64,000 nt of DNA from Streptomyces sp. NBC_00457 (GTDB lineage: Bacteria > Actinomycetota > Actinomycetes > Streptomycetales > Streptomycetaceae). The DNA lies in NCBI RefSeq assembly GCF_036014015.1, contig NZ_CP107905.1:7564001-7628000 (forward strand). Direction: 5' to 3'. Each line of letters starts with the position of its first letter. Within the stretch, counting starts at the first letter, position 1. The notes beneath the pieces were generated by a model. The model worked only from the letters and a program-made list of their open reading frames with translations. It did not search any database and was not told where the DNA came from. Below, in pieces: positions 33,853 through 44,676 of this stretch. The translations under genes and the position numbers were made by a program.

Positions 33853-34086
33853 ATGGGCGACCGCTGGCAGGTCGAGGTCGACCGCTCCATCTGCATCGGC
33901 TCCGCCCAGTGCCTCCACCACGCCCCGGACGGCTTCCGCCTCGACTCCGGACGGCAGTCCCACCCCCTCGAGCCCGAGACGGACGCCAACGAGCAGATCC
34001 TGGCGGCGGCGGAGGGCTGCCCGGTGGAGGCCATCATGATCACCCTGCTGGGGAGCGGCGAGCCGGTGTTCCCGCCGGAGGATTAG
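33853..34086 (+). CDS. 3Fe-4S ferredoxin (P450 electron donor type)
   Basis: A 77-residue ferredoxin. The cluster ligands are CIGSAQC (Cx5C, about residues 13-19) and the later Cys of GCPVEAI, the three-Cys pattern of [3Fe-4S] ferredoxins that feed actinobacterial P450s. Its GGGAGG ribosome site lies in the end of the ALDH gene. There is no P450 next to it; the nearest is the CYP125-like gene at 20749, which carries the same two putative operators. Confidence 0.92.
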   Translation: MGDRWQVEVDRSICIGSAQCLHHAPDGFRLDSGRQSHPLEPETDANEQILAAAEGCPVEAIMITLLGSGEPVFPPED

Positions 34087-34110
34087 CCGGAAAATTTCCA
34101 TTTCAGGGGG

Positions 34111-34138
34111 TTGCATCGCCTCTTGGACGTTTTATCCT
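34111..34138 (+). promoter_or_regulatory. Probable promoter of the ram riboswitch transcript
   Basis: TTGCAT (34111-34116) and TATCCT (34133-34138) with a 16-bp spacer. The expected transcription start near 34145 coincides with the first base of the riboswitch P1 stem. Confidence 0.45.
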
Positions 34139-34147
34139 AGTAATAGG

Positions 34148-34331
34148 CCTACGGGACGAGTGAGGGAGTCCAACCGAAGTAGCCGACTCTGGCGGAAGAC
34201 GGAAGTCTCCGCCGTTGCCGACGTCGACGGTCGGGCTGAGAGGCCGGAAGGTCGTAGTAGTGGGACGATCGGAAGGCGACCCCCAGTCACCTGATCCGGG
34301 TCATACCGGCGAAGGGAACCCGTCTCGTAGG
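34148..34331 (+). promoter_or_regulatory. TPP (thiamine pyrophosphate) riboswitch aptamer
   Basis: The thi-box core is clear: GGGCTGAGAGG near 34233-34243, then ACCTGATCCGGGTCATACC and GGCGAAGGGAA at about 34290-34318. The ends pair: CCTACGGGACG (34148-34158) with CGTCTCGTAGG (34321-34331), 11 pairs including one G-U. The arm between P1 and CTGAGA is longer than usual and contains an extra hairpin (GGCGGA...TCCGCC), so P3 is expanded. It lies upstream of, and in the same direction as, ramC. Confidence 0.88.
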
Positions 34332-34407
34332 TCATTCGCATGCGGTCATTCATGTGTCCGGACCCGTGCGTTTCGCATGTCGGATTCATGACATGTGCGA
34401 CTGTCCG

Positions 34408-34453
34408 CCTCGCCGGGCGGCGTGGAACTCTCGAATCCACGCCGCCCCCGAGG
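34408..34453 (+). promoter_or_regulatory. Ribosome-site hairpin between riboswitch and ramC
   Basis: GGGCGGCGTGGA (34415-34426) pairs perfectly with TCCACGCCGCCC (34436-34447). An outer stem CCTCG/CGAGG pulls the 5' part of the GAGGAGG Shine-Dalgarno (34450-34456) into the structure. It could block translation or end transcription, so it is a candidate expression platform. Confidence 0.65.
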
Positions 34454-34460
34454 AGGGCCG

Positions 34461-37271
34461 ATGGACAGGCGCTACGAGATCTACTGTCTCGCCGACCGGA
34501 TCTTCTACGAGACACCGGACCGTCTGCCCGCCGTCGACGCCGGTACCGGCGCCGCCGCTCTCTACGAGGCCGCACAGCGGCCGGTCCCGGGAGGCTGGCG
34601 GAGCTTCACCTCCGGTGACTGGCTCCAGCTCGCCCCGGTCGACGAGCACGGCACGCCGTGCCCCGGGCTCCCCAGCCAGGGCTGGAAGATCCACGTCTCG
34701 GCCTGCCTCGACAACGCCGAGAAGACCGCCGCCAGACTGTGGGACTACTGCGTACCGCGCGGCATCCCCTTCAAGTTCGTGCCCGGCGCCCAGCCGCTGC
34801 TCCTGCGCAACTCCAAGTACGCCGCCCGCGGTGACAGCGGCAAGTTCGCCACGCTCTACCCGGCGGACGAGACCGAACTCCACCGGATCTTCCAGGAGTT
34901 GGGCGACCTGCTGGCCGGCGAACCGGGCCCCGCGATCCTCAGCGATCTGCGCTGGAACGAGGGCCCGCTGTATGTGCGCTACGGCGGCTTCACCGAACGC
35001 CACTGCGTCGACGAGAACGGCGTCGTCGTCCCCGCCGTCGAGGACCCGGACGGCCGGCTGGTCCCCGACCGGCGGGACCCCGCCTTCCGGCCCCCCGCGT
35101 GGGTGACACTCCCGGAGTTCCTGCGCCCGCACCTCGACGCGCGCAACGCCACCACCACCCGCGACCTGCCGTACCGCATCGAACGGGCGCTGCACTTCTC
35201 CAACGGGGGCGGGGTCTACGCCGGCACCGATGTGCGGACCGGCGAGGAGGTCGTGCTGAAGGAGGCCCGGCCGTACGCGGGACTCACCGTGGACGGAGCG
35301 GATGCCGTGACCCGGCTGGAACGGGAGAAGGCGGCTCTGGAGCGGCTCACCGGGCTGGGTGTCGCACCCGAGGTACGGGACTGGTTCACCCTCGGCGACC
35401 ACCGCTTCCTCGTGATGGATTTCCTGGCGGGCAGCACCCTCAACTCCGCGATCGTGCGACGTCATCCGCTGCTCCAGCCCGAACCGGACCCGGACGCCGT
35501 AGCCGCATACACCCGCTGGGCGTTAGAGGTGCACCGCGCCACCGAGACGGCCGTTGCCGCCGTGCACGAGCGCGGACTGGTCTTCAACGACCTGCACCCG
35601 CTCAACATCATGCTCGCGCCGGACGACCGGACCGTCCGCCTGCTCGACTTCGAGGCCGCCACGCCCGTCGGCGAACACCACGGCCAGACCATCGCCCACC
35701 CCGGCTTCGCCGCCCCCTCCGACCGCGCAGGCCACGACGTCGACCACTACGCCCTCGCCTGTCTGCGACTCGCACTCTTCCTGCCCATGACGTCCCTGCT
35801 CGTCATCGACCGCGGCAAGGCCGCGCACCTCGCGGAGATCGCGGCCGACCAGTTCCCGGACCTGCCGCGGCAGTTCCTGGACGAGGCGGTCCGTGTCATC
35901 ACGGGTGAGCGGCAGCCCGGCGGCGCGCCGGGTGCTCGCGATCGGGCTGCCGGCGGTGTGGGGCGCCCTGGCGGTGGCCGCGGACGGGGCGGCCTCCAGG
36001 ACCGGCGGTTCGATGCCGCGCCCGGCGCCGCGGCCAGGCTCCCCGCCGATCCCGCGGGCCGGCGGGAATCCCCGCAGGGCGGCGCGCCGGGTGCTCGCGA
36101 TCGGGCTGCCGGCGGTGTGGAGCGCCCCAGCGGTGCCCGCGGACGGGGCGGCCTCCAGGACCAGCGGTTCGATGCCGCGCCCGGCCCCGCCTCCATGGTG
36201 CGGGCGATCCTCCGTTCCGCCACGCCCGGCCGGGACGACCGGCTCGTGCCCGGTGACATCGCTCAGTTCTCCGAGGGGGGCGGCCTCGGTATGGCGTACG
36301 GCGCCGCCGGAGTCCTCTACGCGCTCGACGAGACGGGGAACGGGCGCTGGGAGGAGGGTGAGCAGTGGCTCCTGGACCACACCGATCCGCCGCCCGACGG
36401 GACACCGCCCGGCTTCTACGACGGCCTCGCCGGGGTGGCGTACCTTCTCGACCGCCTCGGACACACCGGCCGTGCGCTCGATCTCATGAGCCGCGTCCTC
36501 GACGAGCCATGGCAGCGGCTCGCCCCCGGCCTGCACGGCGGACTCGCGGGCCTCGGGCTCACCCTCGACCAGCTGGCCCGTACGACGGCGGAGCCGGGGC
36601 TGCGCGACCACGCGATGACGGCGGCCCGCATCCTCGCGGAACGGGACCACTCGGCGGGCAGGCGGGCGGGACTGCTGGACGGCGCGACCGGACCGGCGCT
36701 GTTCTTCCTGCGGCTGTACGAGTCCACCGGTGACCGCGGGCTCCTCGACCACGCGGCGTCCGCGCTCCGCGCCGACCTCGCCCGGTGCGTACGGGACGAC
36801 ACCGGCACCCTCGCCGTGGACGAGGGCTTCCGCACCATGCCGTACCTCGGGTCGGGCAGTGCCGGCATCGGCACGGTCATCGAGGACTACCTCGTCCACC
36901 GCCCCGACGACGAGGAGTTCGCCCGGGCCCGCAACGACATCGCGCCGGCGGCCCGATCCCGGTACTACGCGCAGCCCGGCCTCTTCCACGGGCGCGCGGG
37001 GATGATCTTGCACCTCGCCCGGACGGGGGCCGCACGTGCCGACCTGGACGCGCAGACCGCCGCACTCGGCTGGTACGCCATGCCGTACGAGGGCGAACTC
37101 GCCTTCCCCGGCGAGCAGATGATGCGCCTCTCCATGGACCTGGCCACCGGCACCGCGGGCTGCCTGCTCGCCACCACCGCGGCCCGCCCCGGCCGCACCG
37201 CGGCGCTCCCCTTCCTTCCGCCGCTGCCCGCCGCTGCGGCGGCCCACGAACCGGCCCGAGAAGGGTCGTGA
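34461..37271 (+). CDS. ramC: RamC-like class III lanthipeptide synthetase
   Basis: A 936-residue modifying enzyme for the SapB precursor. Residues 1-230 are the lyase-like RamC N-terminal region. The kinase domain follows with Lys267 in VLKEARPY, Asp377 and Asn382 in FNDLHPLNIML, and Asp396 in LLDFEAA; it phosphorylates Ser residues of RamS for elimination. The C-terminal third is a LanC-like cyclase fold (GLGMAYGAAGVLYAL, FHGRAGMILHLAR) lacking the zinc-binding Cys/His, as in class III. Between kinase and cyclase lie two copies of a 53-codon direct repeat (35919-36187). ATG 34461 has GAGGAGG. The leader holds a TPP-type riboswitch. Confidence 0.93.
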   Translation: MDRRYEIYCLADRIFYETPDRLPAVDAGTGAAALYEAAQRPVPGGWRSFTSGDWLQLAPVDEHGTPCPGLPSQGWKIHVSACLDNAEKTAARLWDYCVPRGIPFKFVPGAQPLLLRNSKYAARGDSGKFATLYPADETELHRIFQELGDLLAGEPGPAILSDLRWNEGPLYVRYGGFTERHCVDENGVVVPAVEDPDGRLVPDRRDPAFRPPAWVTLPEFLRPHLDARNATTTRDLPYRIERALHFSNGGGVYAGTDVRTGEEVVLKEARPYAGLTVDGADAVTRLEREKAALERLTGLGVAPEVRDWFTLGDHRFLVMDFLAGSTLNSAIVRRHPLLQPEPDPDAVAAYTRWALEVHRATETAVAAVHERGLVFNDLHPLNIMLAPDDRTVRLLDFEAATPVGEHHGQTIAHPGFAAPSDRAGHDVDHYALACLRLALFLPMTSLLVIDRGKAAHLAEIAADQFPDLPRQFLDEAVRVITGERQPGGAPGARDRAAGGVGRPGGGRGRGGLQDRRFDAAPGAAARLPADPAGRRESPQGGAPGARDRAAGGVERPSGARGRGGLQDQRFDAAPGPASMVRAILRSATPGRDDRLVPGDIAQFSEGGGLGMAYGAAGVLYALDETGNGRWEEGEQWLLDHTDPPPDGTPPGFYDGLAGVAYLLDRLGHTGRALDLMSRVLDEPWQRLAPGLHGGLAGLGLTLDQLARTTAEPGLRDHAMTAARILAERDHSAGRRAGLLDGATGPALFFLRLYESTGDRGLLDHAASALRADLARCVRDDTGTLAVDEGFRTMPYLGSGSAGIGTVIEDYLVHRPDDEEFARARNDIAPAARSRYYAQPGLFHGRAGMILHLARTGAARADLDAQTAALGWYAMPYEGELAFPGEQMMRLSMDLATGTAGCLLATTAARPGRTAALPFLPPLPAAAAAHEPAREGS
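35919..36187. repeat. 159-bp-period direct repeat inside ramC
   Basis: Two copies about 110 bp long start at 35919 and 36078 (GGCGGCGCGCCGGGTGCTCG...) and are in frame, giving GGAPGARDRAAGGV...GGLQD.RFDAAPG twice. They lie in the kinase-cyclase linker and are absent from what I know of RamC proteins. Confidence 0.88.
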
Positions 37272-37306
37272 CACACACAACCCGTCCCCACGAAAGGACG
37301 ACCGAC

Positions 37307-37435
37307 ATGGCACTGCTCGACCTGCAGACACTCGAAGTCCCCGAAGACGACGGCATGGACGGCGGCGGCGCGAACAGCAATCTCAGCGTCACCGGCTGCC
37401 CCGGCAAGAGCAGCCTGAGCCTGCTCAGCTGCTGA
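37307..37435 (+). CDS. ramS: RamS-like SapB precursor peptide
   Basis: A 42-residue class III lanthipeptide precursor. The leader MALLDLQTLEVPEDD matches the LLDLQ-type leader of RamS/AmfS recognised by the synthetase. The core has two SxxSxxxC units: Ser24-Ser27-Cys31 and Ser35-Ser38-Cys42, the pattern that forms the two rings of SapB, the amphiphilic surfactant for aerial hyphae. The two units are joined by PGK, and Cys is the very last residue. An AAAGGA lies upstream of ATG 37307. Confidence 0.95.
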   Translation: MALLDLQTLEVPEDDGMDGGGANSNLSVTGCPGKSSLSLLSC

Positions 37436-37566: not shown

Positions 37567-39279
37567 ATGTCTCAAGTCCCCGCCGTCTCACGGCGGTTCG
37601 TGCGGGACACCGTGCGGCAGGGCGCCGCGCCCGCCGTGACCGTACTGGTGGCCGGTGTGCTGCTGGCCGCCACCGCACTCGCACTGCCCGCCGTGACCGG
37701 GCGGGCCCTCGATCTGCTGCTGGCCGGACGGCACGGTGAGGCGGGCAGGTGGGTGGTGCTGTGCGCCGTCCTCACCGCGGTCGCCGTCCTGGCCGGGGCC
37801 GTGGAGGGCATGGTGACCGCCAGTGGCAGCGCGGGAGCGACGGCCCGGATCCGCACAACGGTGCTGCGGCATCTGCTCGATGCCGGGCCGCGGGCGGGCG
37901 AACGGTTCGCGCACGGGGACCTCGTGGCGCGGCTCGTCGGAAACGCCGCTCAGGCCGGGACCGTGCCCGTGGCGCTCGCCGCCGCGCTGGCTGCCGTCGT
38001 CACGCCGGTCGGCGGGCTGGTCGCCCTCGCCCTCACCGATGTCGTCACCGCCGGTGTGGTGCTGATCGGGATGCCCCTGCTCGTCCTGCTCGTCAAGGTC
38101 TTCGTCCGGACCTTCGGCGACCACACCGACCGCTATCTGCGCGCCCAGGGCGAGATGGCGGGACGCCTCACGGAGGCGCTGCGCGGGGCCCGTACCATCG
38201 CCGCGGCCGGTACCCGCGAACGGGACGCGGCCCGTATCCTCGCGCCGCTGCCCGAACTGTCCCGGCAGGGACACCTCGTCTGGCGGATCATGGGCCGCTC
38301 CACCGCGCAGGCCTCCCTGCTCCTGCCCCTGCTCGAACTCGCCGTCCTCGTCGTCGCCGGACTCCGCGTCGCGGCCGGAGAACTGAGCGTCGGCGGCATG
38401 CTGGCCGCATGGCGGTACGCCGTCCTGGCCACCGGCGCCGGCGGGATCGTCGAAGAGCTCAGCGGCCTGATCCGCGGCCGCGGCGCGGCGCTACGGCTCG
38501 GCGAGGTGCTCGACCAGCCCGTCACGGTGTACGGCACAGTCCGCGAACTTCCGCCGGGCGACGGCACTCTGGAGTTCCGCGGCGTCACTCTGCGCCACGC
38601 GGACCGGGAGGTGCTGCGCGGAATCGACCTGCGGCTGCCGGGCGGTACGGCGGTCGCCGTCGTCGGCCGCTCCGGCAGCGGCAAATCGGCCCTGGCCGCC
38701 CTCGCCGGGCGGCTCACCGACCCCGACACGGGCACGGTCCTCCTCGACGGTGTCCCGCTCCCCGCGCTGACCCGTCGGACACTGCGCCGCGAGACCGGGT
38801 ACGCCTTCGCGCGGCCGGCCCTGCTCGGCGGCACCGTCGGCGGCACCATCGCCTTCGGTGCGTACGACCCCGGCGAGCGGGCCGTCGCCGACGCGGCCCG
38901 CGCCGCCTGCGCCGACGACTACGTACGCCGGCTGCCCGACGGATACGGCACGGCCGTCGCCGACGCGCCGCTGTCCGGCGGGGAGGCCCAACGCCTGGGT
39001 CTGGCACGGGCGTTCGCGCACGCCGGGCGGCTGCTCGTGCTCGACGACGCCATGTCCAGCCTCGACGCCGTCACCGAACTGAAGGTGTCCCGCGCGCTCC
39101 TGCACGGCAGTGGCGCCCGCACCTGCCTGATCGTCGCCCACCGCGCCGCCACGGCCGCCCGCGCGCGGCAGGTGGTGTGGCTGGCGGACGGACGGGTCCG
39201 TGCGGTGGGAACGCATACGCAGCTGTGGCAACTCCCCTCCTACCGCGAGGTGTTCGCAGAGGAGGCCGTCGATGCCTGA
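37567..39279 (+). CDS. ramA: RamA-like ABC exporter half-transporter
   Basis: A 570-residue half-ABC exporter: six helices (about 1-310) and a nucleotide-binding domain. It has Walker A GRSGSGKSA, signature LSGGEAQR, and Walker B LLVLDDAMSSLD, where Asp replaces the usual catalytic Glu. With RamB it should form a heterodimer exporting modified RamS. ATG 37567 has AGGAGG upstream. Its stop overlaps the ramB start by 8 bp (ATGCCTGA). Confidence 0.92.
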   Translation: MSQVPAVSRRFVRDTVRQGAAPAVTVLVAGVLLAATALALPAVTGRALDLLLAGRHGEAGRWVVLCAVLTAVAVLAGAVEGMVTASGSAGATARIRTTVLRHLLDAGPRAGERFAHGDLVARLVGNAAQAGTVPVALAAALAAVVTPVGGLVALALTDVVTAGVVLIGMPLLVLLVKVFVRTFGDHTDRYLRAQGEMAGRLTEALRGARTIAAAGTRERDAARILAPLPELSRQGHLVWRIMGRSTAQASLLLPLLELAVLVVAGLRVAAGELSVGGMLAAWRYAVLATGAGGIVEELSGLIRGRGAALRLGEVLDQPVTVYGTVRELPPGDGTLEFRGVTLRHADREVLRGIDLRLPGGTAVAVVGRSGSGKSALAALAGRLTDPDTGTVLLDGVPLPALTRRTLRRETGYAFARPALLGGTVGGTIAFGAYDPGERAVADAARAACADDYVRRLPDGYGTAVADAPLSGGEAQRLGLARAFAHAGRLLVLDDAMSSLDAVTELKVSRALLHGSGARTCLIVAHRAATAARARQVVWLADGRVRAVGTHTQLWQLPSYREVFAEEAVDA

Positions 39280-41587
39280 GACCGTCCGGGCGGTGCTTCC
39301 GCAGCTGCGCCGCGCGCCGCGCGCCGTCGTACGGCTGCTCGCCTGGTCGGTCCTGGAGACCGGCCAGACCTTCCTGTTCGGGTACGCGCTCGCCCGTGCG
39401 CTCGACGACGGGTTCCTGCGGGGCGAATCCGGCACCGGGGTGCGCTGGCTCGCCGGGGCCGCGCTCGCGGTGGTGCTCGGGGCGTTCGGGACGGCCCGGG
39501 TCTACGCGGCGCTGGCCGGAATCGTGGAGCCGATGCGCGACGACCTCGTGTGCCGGATCGTGCACCGGGCGCTGCGGAACCCGGACGGGGCGGCGGTGTC
39601 CCGGCTGACCCATCAGGTGGAGATCGCCCGCGACACCCTGGCAGGCCTGCTGCTGGTCTCCCGCACCTTTCTGCTCGCGGCGGTCGCGGCGCTGGCCGGT
39701 CTGCTCGCACTGGCCCCCGTCCTGCTGCTGATCGTCGTACCGCCGCTGGTCGCCGGGCTCGCGCTGTTCGCGGCGACGCTGCGGCCGCTGGCCCGGCGGC
39801 AGACCGCCTTCCTCGTCGCCGACGAAGCCGTCACAGCCGACCTGGACGCGGCGCTGGCGGGGCTGCGGGACATCGCGGCGGCCGGCGCCCAGCCACGGGT
39901 GGAGGCCGACACCGCCCGCCGTATCGACGCGGAGCTCCGGGCCGCCCGTGCCCTGGCCCGCTGGGGCACCCTCCGGGAGCTGGCCGTGGGGATCGCGGGC
40001 CGCCTGCCGATCGTCCTGCTGCTGGCGAGCGCCCCCTGGCTGCTCGGCCACGGCGTCACCCCCGGCGCCCTGGTCGCCGCCCTCGCCTACCTCACCCAGT
40101 CCCTGCTCCCCGCCCTCCAGAGCCTCGTCCTCTCCCTCGGCACCGCCGCCGCCCGCCTCGCCGTCGTCCTGAACCGCCTGACCCCCGACGACACGGAACT
40201 GCCCGAGCCACGCCCGCCACTCGACCGGGACACGCCGGGTGCCCTGGCATCCCGGCCCGCTGTCTCGTCACGCGGCCTCACCTCCGCCACCCTCCCGCCC
40301 GGTCGGGACACACCCGGCGCCCCGGGGCCCCGGCCCGCCGTCTCGGTGCGCGGCCGCACCTTCGGCCCGGAGCCGGCCGAGTCTCGGCCTCCCCGCGCCT
40401 CCCTTCCGCCCGGTCGGGGCACGCCCGGCGCCGCGGCATCCCGGCCCGCCGTCTCGGTGCGCGGCCGCACCTTCGGCCCGGAGCCGGCCGAGTCTCGGCC
40501 TCCCCGCGCCTCCCTTCCGCCCGGTCGGGACACACCCGGCGCCGCGGCATCCCGGCCCGCCGTCTCGGTGCGCGGCCGCACCTTCGGCCCGGAGCCGGCC
40601 GAGTCTCGGCCTCCCCGCGCCTCCCTTCCGCCCGATCGGGGCACGCCCGGCACCGCGGGGCCCCTGCCCGCCGTCTCCTTGCGCGGCCTCACCTTCGCCT
40701 ACGGGTCTCATGCCGAGCCGGTGCTGCGCGGACTGGACCTCGATCTGGTTCCGGGTGGGCATCTCGCGGTGGCCGGGCCCAGCGGGATCGGGAAGTCGAC
40801 GCTGACCGCGCTGATCGCGGGGGTGCTGGAGCCGGACCGGGGTGAGGTGCGGCTGTCGGGCGTGCCGGTGAGCGGGCGGCGGCCGGAGGCGTCGGCGGCC
40901 CTGCGGGTGCTCGTGCCGCAGGAGGCGTACGTGTTCACGGGGACGGTGCGCGAGAACGTCGCCTATCTGTGTCCCGAGCCGCCCTCCGATGCCGCAGTCC
41001 TGGCCTCGTGCGCCGCCGTCGGCGCGGACGGGCTCGTCGCCCGTCTGGGCGGGCCGGACGGACAGGTGGCTCCCGGGTCCCTGTCCGCGGGGGAACGGCA
41101 GTTGCTGGCGCTGGCGCGGGCCCATCTCGCCCCCGCGCCCCTCGTCCTGCTCGACGAGGCGACCTGCCATCTCGATCCCGCGGCCGAAGCCCGTGCGGAG
41201 CGTTCGTTCGCCGAGCGCGGGCGGGCGCGGGCCGGGGGCGCCCTGGTCGTCGTCGCACACCGCATCAGCTCGGCACGCCGCGCCGACCGCATCCTGGTGA
41301 TGGACGGCGCGCACACCGACTGCGGTACACACGAGGAACTGCTCGCACGGTCCGCCCTCTATCGGGATCTCGCCGGGAGCTGGGCGGAAGGGGCGCACCC
41401 GGACGTGGAGGCACACCCGGATACGGCGTCACACCCAGCCCTCTGCCCGGCAGATCCGGATGGCGTCGATCCGATTGCGGGCCCCGGTCTTGCGGGTGAT
41501 GGCCGCCATGTAGTTGCGCACGGTCCCGTTGGACAGATGGAGGCTGCTCGCGATCTCGGCGAACGAGGCGCCCGCGGCGGCCAGTGA
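39272..41587 (+). CDS. ramB: RamB-like ABC exporter half-transporter with linker repeats
   Basis: A 771-residue half-transporter, long for the family. Helices occupy about 1-300. Then comes a 150-residue Arg/Pro-rich linker of three perfect or near-perfect 37-residue repeats (VSVRGRTFGPEPAESRPPR...). The nucleotide-binding domain follows with Walker A GPSGIGKST, signature LSAGERQ and Walker B LVLLDEATCHLD with the catalytic Glu kept. The repeat unit looks like copies of the NBD's first strand (VSLRGLTFAYG). The last 53 codons run antisense into ramR and have no family resemblance, so the natural stop may have been lost. Confidence 0.88.
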   Translation: MPETVRAVLPQLRRAPRAVVRLLAWSVLETGQTFLFGYALARALDDGFLRGESGTGVRWLAGAALAVVLGAFGTARVYAALAGIVEPMRDDLVCRIVHRALRNPDGAAVSRLTHQVEIARDTLAGLLLVSRTFLLAAVAALAGLLALAPVLLLIVVPPLVAGLALFAATLRPLARRQTAFLVADEAVTADLDAALAGLRDIAAAGAQPRVEADTARRIDAELRAARALARWGTLRELAVGIAGRLPIVLLLASAPWLLGHGVTPGALVAALAYLTQSLLPALQSLVLSLGTAAARLAVVLNRLTPDDTELPEPRPPLDRDTPGALASRPAVSSRGLTSATLPPGRDTPGAPGPRPAVSVRGRTFGPEPAESRPPRASLPPGRGTPGAAASRPAVSVRGRTFGPEPAESRPPRASLPPGRDTPGAAASRPAVSVRGRTFGPEPAESRPPRASLPPDRGTPGTAGPLPAVSLRGLTFAYGSHAEPVLRGLDLDLVPGGHLAVAGPSGIGKSTLTALIAGVLEPDRGEVRLSGVPVSGRRPEASAALRVLVPQEAYVFTGTVRENVAYLCPEPPSDAAVLASCAAVGADGLVARLGGPDGQVAPGSLSAGERQLLALARAHLAPAPLVLLDEATCHLDPAAEARAERSFAERGRARAGGALVVVAHRISSARRADRILVMDGAHTDCGTHEELLARSALYRDLAGSWAEGAHPDVEAHPDTASHPALCPADPDGVDPIAGPGLAGDGRHVVAHGPVGQMEAARDLGERGARGGQ
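40331..40663. repeat. Three 111-bp tandem repeats inside ramB
   Basis: Units start at 40331, 40442 and 40553, each beginning CGGCCCGCCGTCTCGGTGCG, 111 bp apart and in frame. Degenerate half-copies flank them at about 40250 and 40664; the latter is the true start of the nucleotide-binding domain. Confidence 0.95.
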
Positions 41588-42213: not shown

Positions 42214-42247
42214 GGTTCGGTCGTCAGGTCGGTTCGGTCGTCAGGTC
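42214..42247. repeat. 17-bp tandem duplication setting the kstR stop
   Basis: GGTTCGGTCGTCAGGTC occurs twice head to tail (42214-42230, 42231-42247). The kstR stop codon (42224-42226) lies in the distal copy; because 17 is not a multiple of three, the duplication changes the reading frame and creates the end DLTTEPT. Confidence 0.85.
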
Positions 42248-42838
42248 GATCAGCCTGCACACCGTCTCGATGTCGATCTTCACCTGGGCGATGGACGCAC
42301 GGCCCGATAGCCAGGTGATCAGCGCCGAGTGCCAGGTGTGCTCGATGACGCGGACGGCGGAGAGCTGCTCGGGCGTGGGGTTCTCCAGGCCCATCGCGTC
42401 AAGGATGATCACGGTCGTCTGACGGGAGACCTGGTCGACCTCGGGCGAGACACTGCGGTCCGCGAAAGTGAGCGCGCGGACCATCGCGTCGGCGAGATGC
42501 GGCTCGCGCTGCAGCGCGCGGAACGCCCGCATCAGGGTCTCCGCGACCCGCTCCGCCGCCGTCTCCCCGGCCGGCGGCTTTTTCCGCAGGGTGCCGTGCA
42601 TGTGCTCCAACTGGTCCTGCATCGTGGCGACCAGCAGATGCACCTTGGACGGGAAGTACCGGTACAGCGTGCCGAGCGCCACCTGCGAGGACTCCGCGAC
42701 CTCCCGCATCTGCACCGCGTCGAAACCACCCCGGCTCGCCAGCTGCGCGCTCGCGTGCAGGATGCGACGACGGCGTGCCTCCTGCCGCTCGGTGAGGGGC
42801 GGAGAGGCGGGGTGCGAGGTACTGGCGTCCGCAGGCAT
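42224..42838 (-). CDS. kstR: KstR-like TetR-family repressor
   Basis: A 204-residue TetR regulator. The helix-turn-helix region RRRRILHASAQLASRGGF, DAVQMREVAESSQVALGTLY and RYFPSKVHLLVA (about 20-70) is strikingly like mycobacterial KstR, the repressor of cholesterol catabolism, whose ligand is a 3-oxo-cholestenoyl-CoA thioester. The ligand domain keeps MVRALTFADRSVSPEVDQV. Matches to the KstR operator consensus at four other places in the window support the call. It lies between ramR and the glycosyltransferase operon; its own start is far (388 bp) from the nearest site. Confidence 0.88.
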   Translation of the reverse strand: MPADASTSHPASPPLTERQEARRRRILHASAQLASRGGFDAVQMREVAESSQVALGTLYRYFPSKVHLLVATMQDQLEHMHGTLRKKPPAGETAAERVAETLMRAFRALQREPHLADAMVRALTFADRSVSPEVDQVSRQTTVIILDAMGLENPTPEQLSAVRVIEHTWHSALITWLSGRASIAQVKIDIETVCRLIDLTTEPT

Positions 42839-43293: not shown

Positions 43294-44676
43294 GTGACCG
43301 CTGAGGCCAGTCAGGCGGGGTCCGATGAGGATCCGGCAGCCGACGGCGGGCGACCGCTCCGTATCGCGCTCCTCACCTACAAAGGGAACCCGTTCTGCGG
43401 CGGCCAGGGCGTCTACGTACGACACCTCTCCCGCGAACTCGCCCGCCTCGGTCACCGCGTCGAGGTCATCGGCGCCCAGCCGTACCCGGTCCTGGACGAG
43501 GGTTACGACGCCCTGAGCCTCACGGAACTCCCCAGCCTCGACCTCTACCGCCACCCGGACCCCTTCCGGAACCCCAGGCCCGGCGAGTACCGCGACTGGA
43601 TCGACGCGCTCGAGGTCGCGACGATGTGGACCGGCGGCTTCCCCGAACCCCTCACCTTCTCCCTCCGCGCCCGGCGTCATCTGCGCGCCCGGCGCGGCGA
43701 GTTCGACGTCGTCCACGACAACCAGACCCTGGGCTACGGCCTGTTGGGCGACGTGGGCGCACCCCTCGTCACCACCATCCACCACCCGATCACCGTGGAC
43801 CGCCGCCTGGAGCTGGACGCGGCCGAGGGCTGGCAGCAGCGGTGGTCCAAGCGCCGCTGGTACGGCTTCACCCGCATGCAGAAGCGCGTCGCGCGCCGCC
43901 TGCCGTCCGTGCTCACCGTCTCCGGTACGTCGCGCCAGGAGATCATCGACGATCTCGGCGTCCGTGAGGACCGTATCCACGTCGTCCATATCGGCGCCGA
44001 CACCGACCTGTTCTCGCCGAATCCCGCGGTACGGCAGGTACCGGGGCGGATCGTGACGACGTCGAGCGCGGACGTTCCGCTGAAGGGCCTGGTGTTCCTG
44101 GTCGAGGCGCTGGCGAAGGTCCGTACGGAACACCCCGACGCGCACCTCGTCGTCGTCGGCAAGCGTCCCACGGAGGGACCGGTCGCCCAGGCCGTCGAGC
44201 GGTACGGCCTCGAAGGCGCCGTCGAGTTCGTCAAGGGCATCTCCGACGCCGAACTCGTCGACCTCATCCGCTCCGCCCAGGTCGCCTGTGTGCCGTCCCT
44301 CTACGAGGGCTTCTCCCTTCCCGCCGCCGAGGCGATGGCCACGGGGACGCCGCTGCTCGCCACGACCGGCGGCGCGATCCCGGAGGTCGCCGGGCGCGAC
44401 GGAGAGACGTGCCTCGCGGTGCCGCCGGGCGACCCGGGAGCGCTGGCCTCCGGCCTGAACCGGCTGCTCGGGGACCCGGAGTTGAGAGCACGGCTGGGGC
44501 GCGCCGGCCGTGAGCGGGTGCTGAAGCACTTCACCTGGGCGCGGGCCGCCGAGGGGACGGTGTCCCGTTACCGCGAGGCGATGACGCCCTCTGCCGCCAC
44601 GCCTCCCGGCCGCTCCGCCGCCGCAGAAGCTGTTGACGTCGTTGTATCCGATCGCGAAAGCAGGGCCACGTGCTGA
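43294..44676 (+). CDS. GT4-family glycosyltransferase
   Basis: A 460-residue GT-B retaining glycosyltransferase. N-terminal Rossmann domain: ALLTYKGNPFCGGQGVYVRHLSRELARLGHRVEVIG with the GG-x-G donor/acceptor loop. C-terminal domain: EGFSLPAAEAMATGTPLLATTGGAIPEV, the EX7E-type sugar-nucleotide site. The substrate is unknown. GTG 43294; the next gene's start overlaps its stop by 7 bp. It is the first gene of a three-gene operon preceded by an exact KstR-type site. Confidence 0.92.
   Translation: MTAEASQAGSDEDPAADGGRPLRIALLTYKGNPFCGGQGVYVRHLSRELARLGHRVEVIGAQPYPVLDEGYDALSLTELPSLDLYRHPDPFRNPRPGEYRDWIDALEVATMWTGGFPEPLTFSLRARRHLRARRGEFDVVHDNQTLGYGLLGDVGAPLVTTIHHPITVDRRLELDAAEGWQQRWSKRRWYGFTRMQKRVARRLPSVLTVSGTSRQEIIDDLGVREDRIHVVHIGADTDLFSPNPAVRQVPGRIVTTSSADVPLKGLVFLVEALAKVRTEHPDAHLVVVGKRPTEGPVAQAVERYGLEGAVEFVKGISDAELVDLIRSAQVACVPSLYEGFSLPAAEAMATGTPLLATTGGAIPEVAGRDGETCLAVPPGDPGALASGLNRLLGDPELRARLGRAGRERVLKHFTWARAAEGTVSRYREAMTPSAATPPGRSAAAEAVDVVVSDRESRATC

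Follow-up and report, generated by a model that had tools for sequence, protein, structure and literature searches.

We examined a putative thiamine pyrophosphate (TPP) riboswitch that lies ahead of ramC, the lanthionine synthetase gene of a SapB (ram) lanthipeptide cluster, in Streptomyces sp. NBC_00457 (contig NZ_CP107905.1, positions 7,564,001 to 7,628,000; this whole 64,000-nt stretch is called the window, and coordinates below are those of the window). The conserved element at 34147–34332 is probably a stand-alone non-coding RNA gene, and not the leader of ramC. We favor this reading because a promoter-like region leads up to its closing helix P1, conservation ends after P1, the genomic neighborhoods are varied, the fold is closed, and one arm of the RNA is near-invariant in sequence. 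The RNA has the following parts in the window.

34147–34332 (+), TPP-aptamer RNA, whole conserved unit; 189.8 bits with our covariance model R1, 38.5 bits with the Rfam TPP model RF00059
34147–34158 (+), 5′ strand of P1, partner 34321–34332
34164–34166 (+), 5′ strand of P2, partner 34282–34284
34167–34237 (+), extended P3 arm, with near-invariant strands GTAGCCGAC (34179–34187) and GCCGACGTCGAC (34217–34228), kept in members that lack the TPP core
34236–34241 (+), CTGAGA, the pyrimidine-binding loop of TPP aptamers
34243–34277 (+), P3a hairpin, variable in length
34289–34318 (+), ACCTGATCCGGGTCATACCGGCGAAGGGAA, the P4/P5 half of the aptamer, which is its pyrophosphate side
34321–34332 (+), 3′ strand of P1; followed by a T-rich stretch in most relatives, weakly so in the window

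The Aptamer and its Conserved Structure

The original prediction was right about the aptamer itself: P1 (34148–34158 with 34321–34331, 11 bp with one G-U), CTGAGA and the P4/P5 half lie where it placed them, and the core is intact, with CTGAGA and CCTGAT/CGGCG.AGGGA in the correct order. RF00059, which it had proposed as a check, matches 34152–34334 with 38.5 bits (E 3.8e-6), a score like that of the thiC-like riboswitch of the same genome but under the gathering score of 54.3; because of that cut-off, an Rfam scan of the window at the gathering threshold lists nothing. A whole-genome search with other boundaries gave 31.5 bits at the RNA. The thiO-like, tbpA-like and thiC-like TPP matches of this genome (L001, L002 and L004, genes named by eye from their translations) score 63.4, 46.9 and 38.8 bits, the last only 24.9 bits in the whole-genome search, so a sub-threshold score such as those of the tbpA-like and thiC-like riboswitches is ordinary here. 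We attribute the low score of the window RNA to long inserts in P3 and P3a, and not to a poor core. Since the thiC-like L004 itself falls below the cut-off (38.8 against 54.3), scans run at the cut-off can miss Streptomyces TPP riboswitches. At E < 10, the region 34050–34480 matched only TPP in Rfam, plus a chance match to CRISPR-DR9 (8.2). A coding reading of the RNA was also considered and set aside, as length differences in the arm are not multiples of three.

The predicted fold of 34141–34340 beats shuffled sequences (z −2.4; 3 of 200 shuffles equally good). Across 80 sequences, 95.1% of cells are paired and 40 of 53 pairs show two-sided changes, a level that none of 500 shuffles attained and that compares with 36–45% for slid pairing partners; the sequences had been aligned to fit this structure, so the figures are biased toward it. 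P1 has 97.1% of its cells paired and 8 of its 14 pairs changed on both sides, and in the same alignment P1, P2, P4 and P5 are 97.1–99.5% paired, each with two-sided changes.

Spread of the RNA

Many of the matches from a blastn search of 392 Streptomyces genomes with 34085–34470 stop near the 3′ end of the aptamer, and some separate matches cover the ramC part alone. R1 was built from 30 aptamer sequences, that of the window included, so its scores for those 30 are not independent. It found one copy each in 133 of 384 Streptomyces genomes (E ≤ 1e-10), the conserved RNA being about 110–210 nt long, and gave the three riboswitches L001, L002 and L004 of the window's own genome only 31.1, 30.5 and 19.4 bits.

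Among the 112 non-Streptomyces genomes of 150 drawn from the Streptomycetaceae, 23 from seven genera score at least 60 bits; the raw tally of 133 of the 150 includes matches of about 35–46 bits, which we regard as ordinary TPP riboswitches. In G463, a genome of another genus, contig 1 carries three copies within 77 kb, at 133984, 193855 and 209940. In a class-level sample of 296 genomes, the sole strong relative outside the family is in G739 (107 bits), and the remaining R1 matches outside the family, at 38–47 bits, score as ordinary TPP riboswitches do. A second model, R2, of members without the TPP core, was used to look for genomes with arm-only RNAs that R1 had overlooked, and this possibility was rejected: all 115 genomes that it found (of 376) were already among the 133, so no new carriers were added. 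An Rfam scan of 23 related loci called the RNA TPP in 17 and another family in none; a first set was positive in 4 of 8 at E ≤ 0.1 (L067, L069, L073 and L081, all core-less, were negative), and a second in 13 of 15 at E ≤ 0.01 (L202 and L204 were negative).

Genomic Neighborhoods

From the 133 genomes, 80 loci were taken with about 4 kb per side where the contig allowed, including all members under 170 bits and seven repeat genomes; genes were called with a simple script based on third-codon-position G+C content (GC3), and the RNA was re-found in all 80. The commonest order is aldh-fdx-RNA-kstR-glycosyltransferase. A KstR-like regulator is the convergent downstream neighbor in 37 of the 80 loci and a cysteine-desulfurase-like gene in 13, while 23 have none of kstR, fdx, cysteine desulfurase, aldh and mnmA. 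The nearest downstream open reading frame (ORF) is on the opposite strand in 61. RamC is near none of the 80, and it was found at none of 161 RNA loci outside the window genome and that of Streptomyces sp. GESEQ-4 (flanks of about 1.5–4 kb, shorter at contig ends, with genomes repeated and part of the 133 covered). GESEQ-4 is the only other case seen of the RNA with ramC; its RNA is 99% identical and ramC follows.

The original prediction also held that no thiamine gene is close by, and we agree as far as the nearby ORFs examined, a part of the window, are concerned. Nor does a gene of thiamine metabolism or transport follow the RNA in any of the 80 neighborhoods, counting nearest genes only, few of them domain-scanned. 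The cysteine-desulfurase-like neighbor is encoded on the strand opposite to the RNA; in the portion available of a re-annotation of S. lividans, a cysteine desulfurase is labelled ‘thiamine metabolism’ (PMC8079986).

Two other accounts of the RNA bear on these neighborhoods. It might be a 3′-end element of an aldh-fdx mRNA, serving as terminator or stability element, since 31 of 80 loci have an fdx match upstream in the same orientation, at a median distance of 80 nt. However, the other 49 have no fdx match at E 1e-12 (a short protein, with contig ends close by in some cases), and promoter-like positions are kept just before the RNA across neighborhoods, which makes this account improbable to us. 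The RNA might instead be a mobile or repetitive element with P1 as its terminal inverted repeats; the changing neighborhoods, the nearly invariant sequence of the P1 strands and the three copies in G463 would suit such an element. Yet each Streptomyces genome has a single copy at E 1e-10, conservation extends about 57 nt upstream past the would-be end, the helices covary, and most members keep the TPP pocket, and we regard this origin as highly improbable.

Promoter-like Region and Predicted 3′ End

Just upstream of the RNA lies one further conserved feature.

34090–34138 (+), putative conserved promoter of the RNA; A-tract at about −55, G-run at about −40, TT at −36/−35, −10 box TATCCT at 34133–34138

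The claim that the aptamer starts at a predicted transcription start fits this region, whose −10-like TATCCT would place the start at about P1. A profile of 86 loci aligned on P1 has an A-tract at about −55, a G-run at about −40, a T at −35 and a TA...T-type box at −14 to −9; its conservation reaches about 57 nt before P1 and drops within a few bases past P1. The profile leaves aside 15 loci of a second sub-group, which share an upstream sequence of their own, many with GTAACGTAAATAACA-like letters before P1. The first 8 nt past P1 hold three or more T at 75 of 101 loci; among background windows, 147 of 1010 do. Transcription thus positioned would begin at about P1 and end just after it, with P1 and the T-rich stretch serving as terminator.

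ramC and its Leader

The region downstream of the RNA holds the following features.

~34361–34407 (+), block conserved upstream of ramC, outside the RNA; seen in the leader alignment and in blastn matches to the ramC part alone
34415–34447 (+), 12-bp hairpin beside the ramC ribosome site (34450–34457)
34461–37271 (+), ramC, class III lanthionine synthetase; PF25816 (RamC_N), NF038151 with 1094.9 bits against a cut-off of 575
37307–37435 (+), ramS-like precursor of 42 codons, read from sequence
42224–42838 (−), KstR-like TetR regulator, the commonest convergent neighbor of the RNA, here past the ram cluster

That ramC lies directly downstream is correct: the gene starting at 34461 encodes a class III lanthionine synthetase with a RamC_N domain, 128 nt from the RNA on the same strand. 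This adjacency invites the account of the original prediction, a TPP riboswitch controlling ramC in cis, in which TPP would steady P1 and the leader hairpin would alter access to the ribosome site or read-through, tying SapB to thiamine. The identical order in GESEQ-4, with its nearly identical RNA, speaks for it, and read-through into ramC is possible because only two T follow P1 in the window. The 12-bp hairpin is also present, and its outer stem can take in the ribosome site.

As an expression platform, however, this hairpin fared less well, since comparable ones stand by the ribosome site in six ramC leaders without the RNA, judged by eye (L177, L178, L180, L181, L182 and L184), and in predicted folds P1 and the hairpin stay separate, no search having been made for alternative switching pairings. 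The conserved block at about 34361–34407 intervenes; an alignment judged by eye has it in common between the window and 21 other ramC leaders, and it is probably ramC's own promoter or operator. A ramC start downstream of 34331, which the original prediction itself took to count against control by the aptamer, is for this reason probable; a mapped ramC start was not found in the literature passages available to us. The original prediction had also proposed comparing ramC leaders for the aptamer: R1 has no match at E 0.01 in the stretches that hold 20 of the 21 others, all except GESEQ-4. The pair of aptamer and ramC was seen in the window and GESEQ-4 only. Together with the 161 other loci that lack RamC, ramC's own upstream block led us to drop control by the aptamer as the leading view, and it now seems very unlikely; the conserved region upstream of ramC is most likely what drives that gene.

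The gene order suggests how the two became neighbors. The window reads aldh-fdx-RNA-ramCSAB, then kstR (42239–42829, minus strand) and a glycosyltransferase gene (43294–44583), whereas elsewhere kstR and the glycosyltransferase gene directly follow the RNA. Because the ram cluster lies between the RNA and its commonest neighbor, the adjacency looks like a product of gene arrangement. The KstR-like protein fits NF033703 (KstR) with 201.8 bits, under the cut-off of 280, and its locus is the only match in the genome at E ≤ 1e-20. Eight other genomes have aldh-(fdx)-ramC at the equivalent place with no R1 match in any of the eight stretches; seven of them show kstR and the glycosyltransferase gene beyond ram (one of these seven without an fdx match), and the eighth stops at a contig end. 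In a midpoint-rooted tree of three flanking proteins from 46 loci, used without support values, the window groups among RNA-bearing loci without ram, apart from the ram-only loci. Most simply, this lineage would have acquired the ram cluster next to the RNA gene; alternatively, the RNA and ram may once have stood together more widely, with separate losses later.

Members without the TPP Core

After five ordinary TPP matches and the duplicates were dropped, the 133 rows gave 121 distinct RNAs. The P4/P5 core is present in 104 of them, among which CTGAGA occurs in all 104, ACCTGAT in 101, and all three core motifs in order in 100. The other 17 fail the core pattern; inspection by eye shows a small P5 deletion in one of them (L094) and changed core bases in another (L072), so that about 15 members are truly without P4/P5, with lengths down to 110 nt. 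Core-less members keep P1 and the arm strands, which are GTAGCCGAC-like and GCCGAC(G/A)TCGAC-like, and the arm pattern is found in 16 of the 17 that fail the core pattern. Parsimony on the flanking-protein tree (46 loci, no support values) places four losses of the TPP core at the kstR locus, and L086, at a cysteine desulfurase locus, is a further case.

Both arm strands (within 34173–34232) contain GCCGAC, and they would pair with C-A mismatches, in most members with a tandem G-A/A-G step. Such an irregular, near-invariant helix may be a motif for protein binding or tertiary contact.

Because the arm outlived the aptamer in four lineages, we read the arm as the output part and TPP as a modulator. 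The RNA would be transcribed from its own promoter starting at P1 and would end just past P1. Where the core is kept, the closed P1-P2-P3-P3a-P4-P5 fold with its TPP pocket would sense TPP; the arm and P1 would act in trans on an RNA or a protein, and TPP bound at the junction would modulate that output. As to strength, action in trans with TPP as modulator is an evenly balanced proposition. More tentatively, and somewhat short of that, the family may be a regulatory RNA gene of the Streptomycetaceae in which the TPP aptamer is an optional sensor, lost about four times, that is, a riboswitch turned small RNA. The absence of a target gene common to the loci would also suit a TPP buffer or a decayed riboswitch with no regulatory output; this predicts the opposite of what is seen where the TPP pocket is gone, namely a near-invariant arm and P1, and we give it little credence.

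Several observations weigh against a trans-acting RNA gene of this kind. Of the Streptomyces genomes searched, no more than about a third carry the RNA; a simple sigma-70 scan returned no promoter at 34050–34500; and P1 of the window copy is followed by just two T within 8 nt. The core is kept but the arm pattern missed in 18 of 101 loci, these classes being assigned by pattern (at least L105, in the class with core and no arm, carries the arm by eye). The arm was not found in most of L082–L100, nor in most copies from other genera, so it is not a universal output part. Two sub-families can be told apart, and the arm named here is that of the window's. At 12 of 80 loci an ORF on the strand of the RNA comes within 150 nt, and in eight of these 12 it is an NAD(P)H-binding/DUF2867 gene (L082, L083, L084, L085, L087, L090, L091 and L093), with the RNA just ahead on the same strand. 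Since the eight loci share this gene in this position, a cis role is conceivable in that sub-group, where the gene is a possible target.

Relation to Known Systems

Our preferred reading of a stand-alone RNA gene sets the family apart from most described riboswitches, which are normally read as switching the next gene. Like RF00059 members it has the CTGAGA loop, the ACCTGATCCGG...CCGGCG.AGGGAA half and the P1-P2-P3-P4-P5 layout. It differs from them in having no thiamine gene downstream among the neighbors examined and no common downstream gene, in the sequence-conserved P1, the long conserved P3 arm and the promoter-like region of its own, and in that some members lack P4/P5. The riboswitches L001, L002 and L004 of the same genome share the aptamer core and have similar Rfam scores, but stand ahead of thiamine genes (by eye) and score poorly with R1, as given above.

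The Listeria cobalamin RNA Rli55 is reportedly a trans-acting riboswitch RNA. Also in Listeria, the riboswitch RNAs SreA and SreB are described, in the portions available, as acting in trans on prfA (PMC7266159; PMC3738593). As in these cases, the aptamer RNA of the window would be expected to have its effect at a distance from where it is encoded. The Listeria RNAs, as partly described in PMC7266159, also control a neighboring gene or are produced by termination upstream of one, whereas here an opposite-strand gene comes next in 61 of 80 loci, and the ligand class differs. For the thiC TPP riboswitch of Agrobacterium, an available passage states that a short transcript accumulates, for which its authors suggested trans targets (PMC3738593); the likeness is a short TPP-aptamer RNA (here predicted from sequence), and the difference is its ordinary place upstream of thiC.

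For Streptomyces, the available part of the S. lividans re-annotation names two TPP riboswitches, which precede genes for the biosynthesis and the transport of thiamine (PMC8079986), and the accessible main text of a three-species non-coding RNA survey contains neither the word TPP nor thiamin (PMC3765725). The titles and abstracts of open-licence PubMed Central (PMC) articles gave no TPP RNA at ramC and no stand-alone Streptomyces TPP RNA; supplementary small RNA tables are outside that scope, and an unnamed small RNA may be listed there. The aptamer class is known; within that scope, no description of such a stand-alone TPP RNA was found.

If the reading holds, this would be an unusual reuse of a riboswitch aptamer as an independent RNA that has a promoter to itself, a separable conserved arm and, in most cases, no gene following it. 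Members that have the TPP core and members that lack it occur naturally at the same locus, and comparing them allows a direct test of what the sensor contributes. A riboswitch beside a developmental operon can be there through gene arrangement alone, which calls for caution in assigning such operons to riboswitches.

Other Observations

Cobalamin riboswitch matches flank the RNA at two loci (L067, 824–881; L069, 7818–7890). In genus g14, a palindrome like GGGCCN4GGCCC with 0–1 mismatch (4 perfect) lies 50–53 nt before P1 in 7 of 9 copies examined (L206, L208, L210, L211, L214, L244 and L245), counted without a background control. This palindrome resembles a DevR/DosR site. Neighbors of the g14 copies include a universal stress protein, a cold-shock protein and S30AE ribosome-hibernation-type proteins, and Hsp20 and S30AE are also near a copy of the RNA in g12. 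In the window, a 111-bp unit is repeated 3.8 times at 40273–40697, inside the ORF at 39200–41587 (a ramB-like ATP-binding cassette (ABC) transporter), before its ATPase part.

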